Below are positions 45,527 through 49,308 of a stretch of 64,000 bases of DNA, piece after piece. The notes beneath the pieces are model-generated. The model ran no database searches. It saw only the letters and a program-made list of their open reading frames with translations, and had not been told where the DNA came from. The stretch lies in contig NC_007760.1 in NCBI RefSeq assembly GCF_000013385.1, forward strand, positions 3,260,001 through 3,324,000, written 5' to 3'. The first letter of the stretch is position 1, and the number at the start of each line of letters is the position of its first letter. This DNA comes from Anaeromyxobacter dehalogenans 2CP-C (GTDB lineage Bacteria > Myxococcota > Myxococcia > Myxococcales > Anaeromyxobacteraceae). The position numbers were made by a program, and so were the translations under genes.

Positions 45527-46870
45527 ATGGCCCTCGACCCGCGTCTCGTGTCCCCCAAGGAGAAGCCGCTCTTCGTCGCCGGCGCGATCTTCTCCGGCCT
45601 CGTCTGGCTGGTCGCCGTCGTCTCGATCGTCGGCCTCCTGTACGCGCTGCTCGGCGCCCTGTTCGTCCTCGGCGCGCACGCGCTGTTCCTCGCGCACGTG
45701 CGCACCAACGCGGTGCGCGTGGACGAGCGGCAGCTGCCGGACCTGCACGCGCGCGTGAAGGCGGCCGCCGCCCGCCTCGGCCTCCAGGACGTCCCCGCGG
45801 TCTACGTCATGAACGGCGGGGGCCTGCTCAACGCGTTCGCCACCAAGCTGCTCTCGCGGCGCTACGTGATCCTGCTCTCGGACCTGGTGGACCACTGCGA
45901 GGACCCGCGCCAGGTGGACTTCGTGGTGGGCCACGAGCTCGGGCACTTCGCGGCCGGGCACCTGAAGTGGAACGCGTTCCTGCTCCCCTACGCGATCGTG
46001 CCCTGGCTGGGCGCCGCCTACGCGCGCGCCCGCGAGTACACCTGCGACCGCTGCGGCCTCGCCGCCGCGGGCGACCTCGAGCAGTCGATGCGCGGGCTGG
46101 TGGTGCTGTCCGCCGGCGGGCGGATCGCGGCCCGGGTGGACCTGGCGGCGTTCGCGTCGCAGCGCCAGGAGGCGGGCGAGTTCTGGCCCACGGTGCTCGA
46201 GCTCACCTCCTACCACCCGTTCCTCTCGAAGCGCGTGGCCGCGCTGCACGAGCTGAGCGCCCCCGGCTCCGCGCAGGCCGTGCGCCGCAGCGTGGCCGGC
46301 TGGATCTTCGCGCCGGCGCTGGGCGTGCTCGGCGGCGGCGCCGGCGCGGCGCCGGTGATGGTGGTCGCGATCGTGGGCATGCTGGCCGCCGTGGCCATCC
46401 CGAACTTCGTGCGCTACCAGCTGAAGGCGAAGGACGCCGGGGCGCAGGCCGCGCTCCAGGCGCTGTACCGCGCCGAGGTGGCGGCGCACGAGAAGGAGGG
46501 CAGCTTCCGGGAGCTGCAGCTCGGCGAGGCCGCCACCCGGACGCCGGCCGCGTTCGCGGACGCGGAGCTGGCCGCCGCGCGCGAGCTCGGGTGGCAACCC
46601 CCGACGGGCGGGCACCACGTATACACGGTGGGGGTGGGCCGGACGCAGGACGGCCGGCAGGCGTTCGCGGCGTGCGCGGAGAGCGACGCCGACGGCGACG
46701 GGGTCTACGCCGCCTGGATGGTGTGGGAGCCCCTGGACGACGGCGAGGGGAACCTCATCGCGCCCGCCTCGCCGTGCCGCTTCCAGCCGAAGCTGGCGCG
46801 CGCGGCGGTGTTCGGAGAGGGCGACGCGGCGGGGGTGCCGGTGCGGGTCTCGCCGGACGACGTGTTCTAG
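45527..46870 (+). CDS. M48-family membrane metalloprotease fused to a pilin-like C-terminal module
   Basis: 447 residues. Residues ~15-55 form two helices. The catalytic domain has HELGH (136-140) with the third ligand in ARAREYTCDR (Glu170) and the HPFLSKRVAAL element typical of M48/HtpX proteins. From ~277 the chain reads VMVVAIVGMLAAVAIPNFVR, then YQLKAKDAGAQAALQALY, closely like the N-terminal helix of type IV pilins such as PilA. There is no FTLIE-type processing site before it. The last ~140 residues resemble a pilin globular head (GWQPPTGGHHVYTVGVG). It ends 5 bp from the converging JAB-E1 gene. Confidence 0.85.
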   Translation: MALDPRLVSPKEKPLFVAGAIFSGLVWLVAVVSIVGLLYALLGALFVLGAHALFLAHVRTNAVRVDERQLPDLHARVKAAAARLGLQDVPAVYVMNGGGLLNAFATKLLSRRYVILLSDLVDHCEDPRQVDFVVGHELGHFAAGHLKWNAFLLPYAIVPWLGAAYARAREYTCDRCGLAAAGDLEQSMRGLVVLSAGGRIAARVDLAAFASQRQEAGEFWPTVLELTSYHPFLSKRVAALHELSAPGSAQAVRRSVAGWIFAPALGVLGGGAGAAPVMVVAIVGMLAAVAIPNFVRYQLKAKDAGAQAALQALYRAEVAAHEKEGSFRELQLGEAATRTPAAFADAELAAARELGWQPPTGGHHVYTVGVGRTQDGRQAFAACAESDADGDGVYAAWMVWEPLDDGEGNLIAPASPCRFQPKLARAAVFGEGDAAGVPVRVSPDDVF

Positions 46871-46875
46871 CCGGC

Positions 46876-48690
46876 TCAGGGGGCGGCGTCGCGCAGCGCG
46901 CGGGCGATGGCCTCGGCGTCGGGCGCGCGGCGCGGCACCTCGAGCGGATCGCAGCGCGCCTCGGGCGGCCCGCACACCGGGCAGTCCGCGGCGCGCGCGG
47001 GCGTGAGCCACACCGACTGGTACGCGCCCTGGCCCGGCGTGTCGCCGAACACCTGCGGGTAGAACCAGTAGCCGGGCACGGTCGAGAGCGTGAGGTAGGT
47101 GGCGCCGGACGCGATCACGTCCTCCGCGAACGGCCGCAGCCCGCCCTCGCCCTCCGGCGCGAGCAGCGAGAGCGCCAGCTTCGCGGCGGCGCTCGCCACG
47201 TGCTGCACGTCGGCCGCGAGCGCGACCTCGCCCCGCAGCCGCCCGGTGCCGTAGTCCAGCTCGCGCGCCACGCGCCCCCCGGCGCGCTCCAGGCCGTGGC
47301 GGCTCCGGGTCGCGCACAGGTAGCAGGCGGTCCGGCCCGGGGCGGTGACGATCACCTCGCCCCCCCGCGCGCCCGCGTACAGGCCCACGAACAGCGCCGG
47401 GCGCCCGCGCGCGTAGGCGAAGCGGTCGAGCGCGCGCTGCGCCGCGGGATCGTCGGTGGCGGCGAGCACGAGGTCCGCCTCGCGCACCCGCGCGTCCAGC
47501 GCCGCCGGCGGGAGCGCGTCCACCGCGCACGGCTCCAGCGCCAGCGCGATCGACGGCTCCACGGCGAGCAGCCGCCGCGCCAGCGCCTCCGGCTTGGGCC
47601 GGCCCACGTCCTCGGCCGCGTAGACGGTGCGCGACAGGTTCGCGGGCTCCACCGCCTCGGGGTCGAGCAGCGCGAGCCGCCCGACCCCCGCGCGCGCCAG
47701 CAGCTCGGCCAGGTACGAGCCCACCGACCCGCACCCGGCCACCAGCACGGCGCGCTCGCGCAGCGCCTCCGGGAGCCGCGCCGCGCTCCGCGCCCGCAGC
47801 CCGCCGCGCCGCGCCTCCTCGCGCGCCTCCGGGCCGCCGTCCGCGAGCCGCGCCGTCCACCCCGACAGCCGCGCCCGCCCGGCGTCGCGCGTCAGCGCCG
47901 GCCCGCCGGGCGGCCCGTACGCGCGCCGGCGCGGGCCGGGCCCCTCCAGCACCGCCGCGAGCGCCGCGGCGAGCCGCTCCTCCTCGGCGAGCGCGAGCGG
48001 CCACGCCAGCTCGAGCTGGGCGGTGGCCTCGCCCTCGCCGCCGCCGAGCGCCACCGGCGGGAGCGCCGGGTAGTGCTCCCCCGCGAGCACCAGCACCTCG
48101 CCGCCGGCGTCGAGGCGCAGGCGCCCGGCCAGCAGCGGCCCCTCGCCCGCGTCGGTGACGAACCCCTCCGCCCGCCCGCCGCCCAGCGCCGCGGCCGCGC
48201 GCTCGAGGTCGCGGAGCAGCGGGACGGCGCGGAGCGGCTCGGGGCGGACCTCGGTGCCGCCGCCCCGCGAGCGGCGCGCGGCGAACAGCGAGAGCTTCCC
48301 GCGCGGCAGCGCGACCTCGTGCGCGCCCGGCGCGCCCGCCGGCGCGAGCGACACGACCGGCCCGAGGTAGCAGCCGAGGTGCGGGTTGTGCGCGAGCCCG
48401 GCGGCGAGCTCGCGGGCGTCCTGCGCCGAGGGCTGGTCCAGGGCGCCGGGGTGCGAGTGCACGAGGCCCTTCAGCTCCAGCCCCTCGCCGCGCTCCAGCG
48501 CGGCCACGCGCGCCCCCAGCCCCGCCGACGGCGCCCACTGGCTGGCGCTGGCGCGCGCCCCCGGATCCGGCTCGAAGCGGGTCAGGAGCGGGCGCCCCGG
48601 GGGTCCGAGCAGCGCGCCCCCGCGCTCCGGCGGATGGCCGCCGAGCTCCGCGTCGAGGGCGCGGAGGACCCAGTCGGCCACGCACCACAC
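46876..48690 (-). CDS. JAB (JAMM) protease - E1-like (ThiF) fusion protein
   Basis: 604 residues from a GTG start. Residues ~1-130 are a JAB domain: Glu22 in PERGGALLG and the zinc motif HSHP...S..D at His78, His80, Ser88 and Asp91, as in deubiquitinases. Residues ~315-470 are an E1-like adenylating domain: VLVAGCGSVGSYLAELLARA, then LLDPEAVEPANLSR, and Asp in LVLAATDDPAAQRALD. Cysteine pairs CYLC and CPVCG likely bind zinc. The protein could both activate and remove a ubiquitin-like modifier. It lies 15 bp downstream of a 61-residue gene and near an E2-like gene. Confidence 0.88.
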   Translation of the reverse strand: MWCVADWVLRALDAELGGHPPERGGALLGPPGRPLLTRFEPDPGARASASQWAPSAGLGARVAALERGEGLELKGLVHSHPGALDQPSAQDARELAAGLAHNPHLGCYLGPVVSLAPAGAPGAHEVALPRGKLSLFAARRSRGGGTEVRPEPLRAVPLLRDLERAAAALGGGRAEGFVTDAGEGPLLAGRLRLDAGGEVLVLAGEHYPALPPVALGGGEGEATAQLELAWPLALAEEERLAAALAAVLEGPGPRRRAYGPPGGPALTRDAGRARLSGWTARLADGGPEAREEARRGGLRARSAARLPEALRERAVLVAGCGSVGSYLAELLARAGVGRLALLDPEAVEPANLSRTVYAAEDVGRPKPEALARRLLAVEPSIALALEPCAVDALPPAALDARVREADLVLAATDDPAAQRALDRFAYARGRPALFVGLYAGARGGEVIVTAPGRTACYLCATRSRHGLERAGGRVARELDYGTGRLRGEVALAADVQHVASAAAKLALSLLAPEGEGGLRPFAEDVIASGATYLTLSTVPGYWFYPQVFGDTPGQGAYQSVWLTPARAADCPVCGPPEARCDPLEVPRRAPDAEAIARALRDAAP

Positions 48691-48705
48691 GCGCCGGCCC
48701 TGCGG

Positions 48706-48891
48706 CTAGGCGAACACCGCCGGGTGAACCTTCGAGAGCATGCGCTGCTCGGCTTCGCCCTGCTCCACGCCGATGACCACCCGGCCGTCCGGCGTCACCC
48801 ACACCCGGCCGCGCGCCTCGGGCGCCCTGGGGGCGTCGCGCCGCTCGTCCCGCATCGCCTCGCGAAGTCGTTCGAGAACCGTCTGCGACAT
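48706..48891 (-). CDS. 61-residue protein between the E2-like and JAB-E1 genes
   Basis: A helical, charged N-terminus (TVLERLREAMRDERRDAP) and a probable beta-hairpin (RVWVTPDGRVVIGVEQGEAE), ending HPAVFA. It lies 36 bp after the E2-like gene and 15 bp before JAB-E1. The C-terminus has no Gly-Gly or any Gly, and the fold order does not suit a beta-grasp, so it is probably not a standard ubiquitin-like modifier; it may be an adaptor or a conjugation target. The start is supported by GGAGGCAGCC about seven bases upstream. Confidence 0.65.
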   Translation of the reverse strand: MSQTVLERLREAMRDERRDAPRAPEARGRVWVTPDGRVVIGVEQGEAEQRMLSKVHPAVFA

Positions 48892-48927
48892 GGCTGCCTC
48901 CTCCGGTGCCCCCGCCTGCGCGGGAGG

Positions 48928-49308
48928 CTAGAACGGGAACCGCCCCTCGCGCGCGAACACGCTGAAGCCGTTGCACCACAGGACGCTGCGCGCGTACGCG
49001 TCCTCCAGCGAGGGCATCCCGCCGCCGGCCTCGCTCGAGAGGCACAGGCGCCCGTCGGGGAAGACGTGGCAGGCGTGGGGATCGAAGCGCCCCAGGACCT
49101 GCGGCTCGACGAGCTTCACCTGGTAGCCGCCCCCGTCGAACCAGAGGAACAGCTGGTACGGGTCGTCGAGCTCGCTGACGACGGGGAAGAGCCAGCCGCT
49201 CACCCCCTCCACGGTCAGGTACCGGGTGCTCGAGGGGAGGATCCCCTCCGCCCGCGCGCGATCGCGGAGCACCCGGCCGAAGCCGTCGACGAGGCAGGCG
49301 AGGCCCAT
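48928..49308 (-). CDS. E2-like (UBC-fold) protein
   Basis: 126 residues from the ATG at 49306-49308. The layout follows bacterial E2-like families: an N-terminal helix (LVDGFGRVLRDRARAEG), a meander of strands (GWLFPVV; YQLFLWFDGG), then HACHVFPDGRLCLSSE, in which Cys89 takes the place of the catalytic Cys after an HxxPDGxLCL pattern, and a terminal helix (EDAYARSVLWCNGFSVFARE) ending GRFPF. It would receive a modifier from the E1 domain and transfer it. The identification is by motif reading only, but position beside JAB-E1 supports it. Confidence 0.72.
   Translation of the reverse strand: MGLACLVDGFGRVLRDRARAEGILPSSTRYLTVEGVSGWLFPVVSELDDPYQLFLWFDGGGYQVKLVEPQVLGRFDPHACHVFPDGRLCLSSEAGGGMPSLEDAYARSVLWCNGFSVFAREGRFPF

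Follow-up and report, generated by a model that had tools for sequence, protein, structure and literature searches.

What does a small set of ubiquitin-like conjugation enzymes in Anaeromyxobacter dehalogenans 2CP-C attach to its targets? The locus in question lies in a window of 64,000 nucleotides (the whole stretch of DNA that was analysed), and it encodes an E2-like protein, a 61-residue protein and a protein that joins a JAB protease to an E1. A sequence-only reading of the window had described it as a conjugation system without a visible modifier. We examined the three proteins, their relatives in other genomes and the known systems of this type.

Components of the cassette

The cassette consists of three minus-strand genes within 2.4 kb. 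They encode, in order, the E2-like protein of 126 residues (48928-49308), the 61-residue protein (48706-48891) and a JAB - middle domain - E1 fusion of 604 residues with a GTG start (46876-48690). The gaps between the genes are small, with 36 bases from the E2 gene to the 61-residue gene and 15 bases from there to the JAB-E1 gene, so the three genes are probably co-transcribed. The open reading frames proved to be real, and since the gene order is shared by relatives while the flanks change, the cassette is more than a chance arrangement. In all three genes, the 61-residue gene included, dN is well below dS (dN 0.007-0.037, dS 0.11-0.45), and GC3 is 0.90-0.99. Judged from these sequence comparisons, the 61-residue gene is under purifying selection, as are its two cassette neighbours.

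The E2-like protein contains Cys89 in the motif HVFPDGRLCL (codon at 49042-49044, minus strand), at the place given by the sequence-only reading. This cysteine is invariant in 18 of 18 sequences, that is, in every sequence aligned. The predicted catalytic residues of E2, JAMM and E1 are also invariant in relatives from Cyanobacteria, Chloroflexota and Actinobacteria. The proposed UBC fold is borne out by the AlphaFold2 model of a fused homologue from Thermoflexus, in which the E2 part has a pLDDT above 90 and its elements follow the order alpha-4beta-alpha. In Foldseek searches, a type II CBASS E2 is the first match among viral models (E 1.9e-3, probability 1.00); against the PDB, with the whole fused chain as the query, nothing was significant, and a UEV domain ranked second. 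E2 matches in Pfam, NCBIfam, PHROGs and PADLOC are weak only, and the PADLOC E2 model matches 11 of 25 rows with a best E of 1.8e-4. The predicted fold and the conserved cysteine support the view that the 126-residue protein belongs to the E2/UBC superfamily, with Cys89 as its predicted active-site residue.

The third protein had been read as a complete JAMM protease fused to an E1-like domain. Both domains are indeed present, and the AlphaFold2 model of the protein (mean pLDDT 84.7) places a third domain between them. The JAB/JAMM metalloprotease domain (about residues 1-115; 48346-48690, minus strand; Prok-JAB E 5.3e-11) shows the metal-site pattern E, HxH, S, D, formed by Glu22, His78, His80, Ser88 and Asp91. 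The E1-like adenylation domain (about residues 296-580; 46951-47805, minus strand; ThiF E 3.5e-31) has two CxxC zinc pairs and the E1/ThiF hallmarks, GxGxxG together with the Arg, Lys and Asp of the adenylation site. None of these active residues varies freely: the five JAB residues and the adenylation-site residues G321, R354, K366 and D413 are invariant in the aligned sequences. The middle domain (about residues 158-250; 47941-48219, minus strand) is modelled as a helix, strands and a helix, with an invariant YPxxPP after the third strand and no conserved Cys. This element order and the YPxxPP motif make it look UBC/RWD-like, and it is probably an inactive domain of that kind, a homology that sequence profiles did not demonstrate. 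As a whole, the protein matches the folds of ThiF, Uba4, UBA5, BubCD, Cap2 and MccB. We note that at L031 and L033, from Planctomycetota and alphaproteobacterial MAGs, JAB and E1 are encoded by two genes, and that at L031 each half seemingly has a version of the middle domain.

Thioester-forming E1s have a Cys in or near the crossover loop, and this feature is missing from the cassette E1: no crossover-loop Cys is conserved among 22 E1 sequences, in which only the four zinc-pair Cys are conserved. The loop does contain Tyr480 in a D-Y motif (codon at 47251-47253, minus strand), which is invariant across the same 22 sequences. With no catalytic Cys in the E1, the adenylate may either be handed straight to Cys89 of E2 or be passed on via a tyrosine ester. 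The Bub pathway reportedly uses oxyester intermediates, and the entry for the solved BubCD structure is titled as a D104A/Y370F mutant.

The 61-residue protein and its fused homologues

The 61-residue protein has no family in Pfam, NCBIfam, PHROGs or PADLOC. It lies outside the curated families of the libraries searched, and its E2 neighbour has only the weak matches given above. That it is no obvious beta-grasp protein, as had been remarked, agrees with the AlphaFold2 model of the fused homologue, which shows a helix and a short hairpin with a pLDDT of about 70-80. Within the families searched, there is also no known beta-grasp modifier or cyclase beside the cassette, as the sequence-only reading had stated.

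In every other phylum examined, the E2s bear about 60 additional N-terminal residues, and these are homologous to the 61-residue protein. When a profile is built from the fusions only, it matches the separate genes of the Anaeromyxobacter family at E 7e-12 to 8e-5. The elements of the small domain are a helix, a V-x-V-D-x-x-G-x-I hairpin and a tail, S-x-V-x4-F-A. With a small-domain profile that was built with sequences of the same genomes in which matches were counted, one strong copy per genome was found in 18 genomes, always at the cassette locus. Among the phyla examined, this domain has a separate gene only in Anaeromyxobacteraceae and is otherwise fused to E2. Because the domain precedes E2 in the fusions and the 61-residue gene follows E2 in Anaeromyxobacter, this is a piece that was relocated: from the gene order, the domain is in Anaeromyxobacteraceae moved to its own gene after E2, with a new stop just past FA.

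Conservation of the small domain peaks at its C-terminal end, LSxVxxxxFA (LSKVHPAVFA here; 48709-48738, minus strand), which is placed at the fusion junction in the fused proteins. Free-standing copies stop exactly at FA in 6 of 10 cases and 2-4 residues later in the other four, whose tails beyond FA are APRS, APLR, AGQG and AP. In an actinobacterial protein from Kineosporiaceae, the tail motif occurs twice in tandem ahead of the E2, as LSQVTAETFYM and LSQVTSETFYA. By analogy, we infer that the fusions, tandem repeats and short tails of the small domain resemble the production of ubiquitin precursors. A radical SAM-like gene (CxxxCxxC; L085:11355-12653, plus strand) is located near the Kineosporiaceae copy.

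A candidate modifier and its alternatives

The 61-residue protein always accompanies the enzymes, with a single copy per genome that is confined to the cassette locus, and no other modifier candidate is constant among the neighbours compared at the loci. The free copies that end at or near FA resemble ubiquitin precursors. These observations count for a modifier role, and we consider there to be an even chance that the 61-residue protein is a non-beta-grasp modifier of a self-contained conjugation cassette, either freed by JAB or encoded ready-made. Of the earlier conjugation reading, the enzymatic part is supported (predicted UBC fold, invariant Cys89, JAB and E1 residues); it was probably mistaken in seeing no modifier, as the 61-residue protein is obligatory and homologous to the N-terminal part of the domain-E2 fusions.

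The cycle that we infer, from the modifier role and the Phe-Ala cleavage to the transfer chemistry and the targets, would run as follows. The modifier would be made as an N-terminal E2 fusion in most bacteria, where JAB would trim or release it after the conserved Phe-Ala; here it would be made separately, already ending in Phe-Ala. E1 would adenylate the C-terminal alanine of the 61-residue protein and, being Cys-less, would pass the modifier to Cys89 of E2, directly or through the invariant Tyr480. E2 would then transfer the modifier to target amines, and JAB could take it off again. As the JAMM, E1 and E2 residues are all invariant, attachment and removal are both expected. We hold this complete picture more tentatively, at somewhat under even chances: a Phe-Ala-ended, non-beta-grasp tag of about 60 residues, present as a tag-E2 fusion in most bacteria and freed by an E1-borne JAB, with a Cys-less E1 and a Cys-bearing E2.

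Several features count against a modifier. The protein has no beta-grasp fold, and its C-terminal residue is Ala, not Gly. In the fused AlphaFold2 model, the residues around FA have a pLDDT of only about 67 and continue into helix 1 of E2, which is the behaviour expected of a plain linker. A stop near FA would also result if a gene were split at the domain boundary.

To our knowledge, E1-E2 cascades use beta-grasp proteins as modifiers; the exception is cGAS in CBASS, which has its own C-terminal tail. If the modifier reading is true, the cassette would have a dedicated small modifier of another fold, and E1-E2-JAB machinery would be running with a different tag. The reading names a concrete C-terminal end, VFA, to seek in proteomics. 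A Cys-less E1 beside a Cys-bearing E2 would also open the evolutionary order of thioester chemistry to direct testing, in a minimal cassette of three genes and 2.4 kb with cultured hosts, Anaeromyxobacter and Arthrospira. Outside these cascades, Pup is a protein of about 60-70 residues that is attached by PafA via its C-terminal Glu, without E1 or E2. Pup resembles the 61-residue protein in size, in having no beta-grasp fold and in its conserved C-terminal end, and differs from it in the attachment enzyme and the end residue.

The main alternative, possible but less likely, is that the 61-residue protein is an accessory or adaptor that docks E2 on JAB-E1, and that another cellular protein is conjugated, possibly one of the ThiS/MoaD type encoded elsewhere. 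The domain is covalently part of E2 in other phyla, its tail could serve as a short binding motif, and a parallel can be drawn with some eukaryotic E2s, whose N-terminal extensions dock on their E1. However, the protein is separate here, with a sharply conserved end 0-4 residues from the stop, and docking would leave an active-looking JAB with no obvious precursor to cut. The genome does have four ThiS/MoaD-family matches elsewhere, but such matches were also found in 12 of 14 control genomes, so they show no specific link to the cassette.

Comparison with known systems places the cassette in the E1-E2-JAB type, although it lacks defining features of Bil, type II CBASS and Bub/6e. In Bil (BilABCD), BilA is made of two ubiquitin-like domains, BilD combines an inactive with an active adenylation domain and has a catalytic Cys, and the JAB trims the modifier before use (PMC11354881). 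The cassette shares with Bil the grouping of a (here candidate) modifier, E2, JAB and E1 in a single operon; in contrast to Bil, its E1 has one adenylation domain and no catalytic Cys, and there is no two-Ubl BilA. Type II CBASS likewise combines E1 and E2 activity with a JAB (Cap2/Cap3), and its E2 is the closest viral fold match of our E2 model. The protein attached there through its C-terminus is cGAS, which is not a beta-grasp protein, and the thioester still forms when the end is changed from Gly to Ala (PMC10097602). However, no CD-NTase adjoins the cassette, whose E2 is a separate gene and whose JAB is fused to E1, whereas Cap2 is an E2-E1 fusion with a predicted catalytic cysteine in the crossover loop, C513, 17 residues past C496 (PMC10097602). 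In the FtsH-ternary conflict systems, the modifier is fused N-terminally to an E2 and is thought to be released by the JAB peptidase (Kaur et al. 2020, PMC7159879), and this N-terminal position is shared by the small domain of our fusions. Those systems have separate JAB, E1 and RING genes together with EAD1, MoxR-vWA and FtsH; MoxR-vWA, FtsH, RING and EAD1 are absent around the Anaeromyxobacter loci.

In operon type 6e (Iyer et al. 2006, PMC1779556), a JAB-E1 fusion is encoded together with a metal-binding protein, an E2-like domain that has no Cys and between one and three beta-grasp domains, and in some cases the modifier and the E2-like protein form one chain. The Bub pathway, with the solved BubCD complex, looks like the same kind of system. 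We think it improbable that the cassette is a diverged Bub/6e branch that is missing the polyUbl and the metal-binding protein, with the 61-residue protein as a remnant. In favour of such a branch are the JAB placed N-terminal to the E1-like domain, the adjacent E2-like protein, the BubCD structures among the top fold matches and the crossover-loop tyrosine, which is also present in six 6e E1s. However, when 6e loci were gathered via the Multi_ubiq family and their E1s were aligned to the cassette E1, similarity was confined to the E1 core, and the tyrosine positions aligned only loosely with Tyr480. In addition, the invariant Cys of the cassette E2 is missing from the E2-like domains of 6e, and the cassette differs in having no beta-grasp Ubl (no Ubl family match, and a small domain made of a helix and a hairpin without beta-grasp elements), no metal-binding gene at the Anaeromyxobacter loci (within the window, the cassette is flanked by DUF815 and M48 genes) and an extra middle domain between JAB and E1. 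Very improbable is a peptide-product locus in which the 61-residue protein would yield a peptide whose C-terminus is adenylated by E1, as MccB does for microcin C7: MccB and PaaA, which act on short peptides, are among the E1 matches, but this would leave the E2 with its invariant Cys unexplained, the small domain is fused to E2 elsewhere and evolves slowly across phyla, and the loci have no exporter or immunity gene as a constant neighbour.

Distribution and genomic context

Across Anaeromyxobacter, the order E2, 61-residue gene, JAB-E1 is conserved in 8 of 9 genomes, the ninth being 66% complete, and it is also found in two genomes of a second genus of the same family. Among the 24 family genomes sampled, 10 have this conserved unit; none was found outside the family in the remainder of the 195 Myxococcota genomes searched. 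In one genome (G011), the E2 gene is in two overlapping frames (L020:6242-6633, plus strand), reflecting a frameshift or a sequencing error, and the 61-residue and JAB-E1 genes are intact.

The system reaches beyond Anaeromyxobacter and beyond Myxococcota. In a scan of one genome per species, 17 loci were matched by JAB-E1 alignment, including loci from Arthrospira, Calothrix, an Oscillatoriales MAG, Thermoflexus, Planctomycetota, two alphaproteobacterial MAGs, Kineosporiaceae, Paractinoplanes and Anaerolineaceae. With the query genome counted each time, the system is present in 6 of 245 genomes of the order of Arthrospira, 1 of 301 of the phylum of Thermoflexus, 1 of 289 of the class of an alphaproteobacterial copy and 2 of 297 of the class of Paractinoplanes, where one of the two copies is degraded. 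This rare and patchy occurrence suggests horizontal spread of the cassette. Phages and plasmids do not commonly carry the cassette, as no relatives were found in viral contigs and plasmids at the limits used. In an actinobacterial genome (G1489), a homologue of the small-domain-E2 fusion is degraded and has lost the Cys segment (L080:6325-6732, minus strand); the 13 kb examined around it gave no JAB-E1 match.

The cyanobacterial copies (L075-L078) adjoin genes with CHAT domains, some of which also have NB-ARC or iSTAND domains, and a MoxR-type AAA ATPase gene is near two of these copies only (L077 and L078). Predicted conflict systems are known to include CHAT, NB-ARC/iSTAND and MoxR-type components (PMC7159879, PMC8195603). 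Beside the Anaerolineaceae copy (L037), the adjoining gene (L086:11518-12885, minus strand) encodes an E2-like domain, without the HxxxxGxxC motif, fused to a ClpB-D2-type AAA+ domain. This fusion suggests an unfoldase partner for a tagging system. The CHAT/MoxR and ClpB-type neighbours point to a possible role in defence or protein turnover, though neither link is general and both are missing at the Anaeromyxobacter copies.

The genes that flank the cassette vary between species, and DUF815 and M48 genes are common to the nearest relatives only. The DUF815 ATPase and the M48 peptidase were considered as cassette parts and rejected, since they adjoin the cassette only in those closest relatives. 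The M48 gene of the window (45527-46870, plus strand) is convergent with the JAB-E1 gene, and its product has a pilin-like segment (PilA/GspG N-terminal type) in its C-terminal half, which is an unusual fusion.
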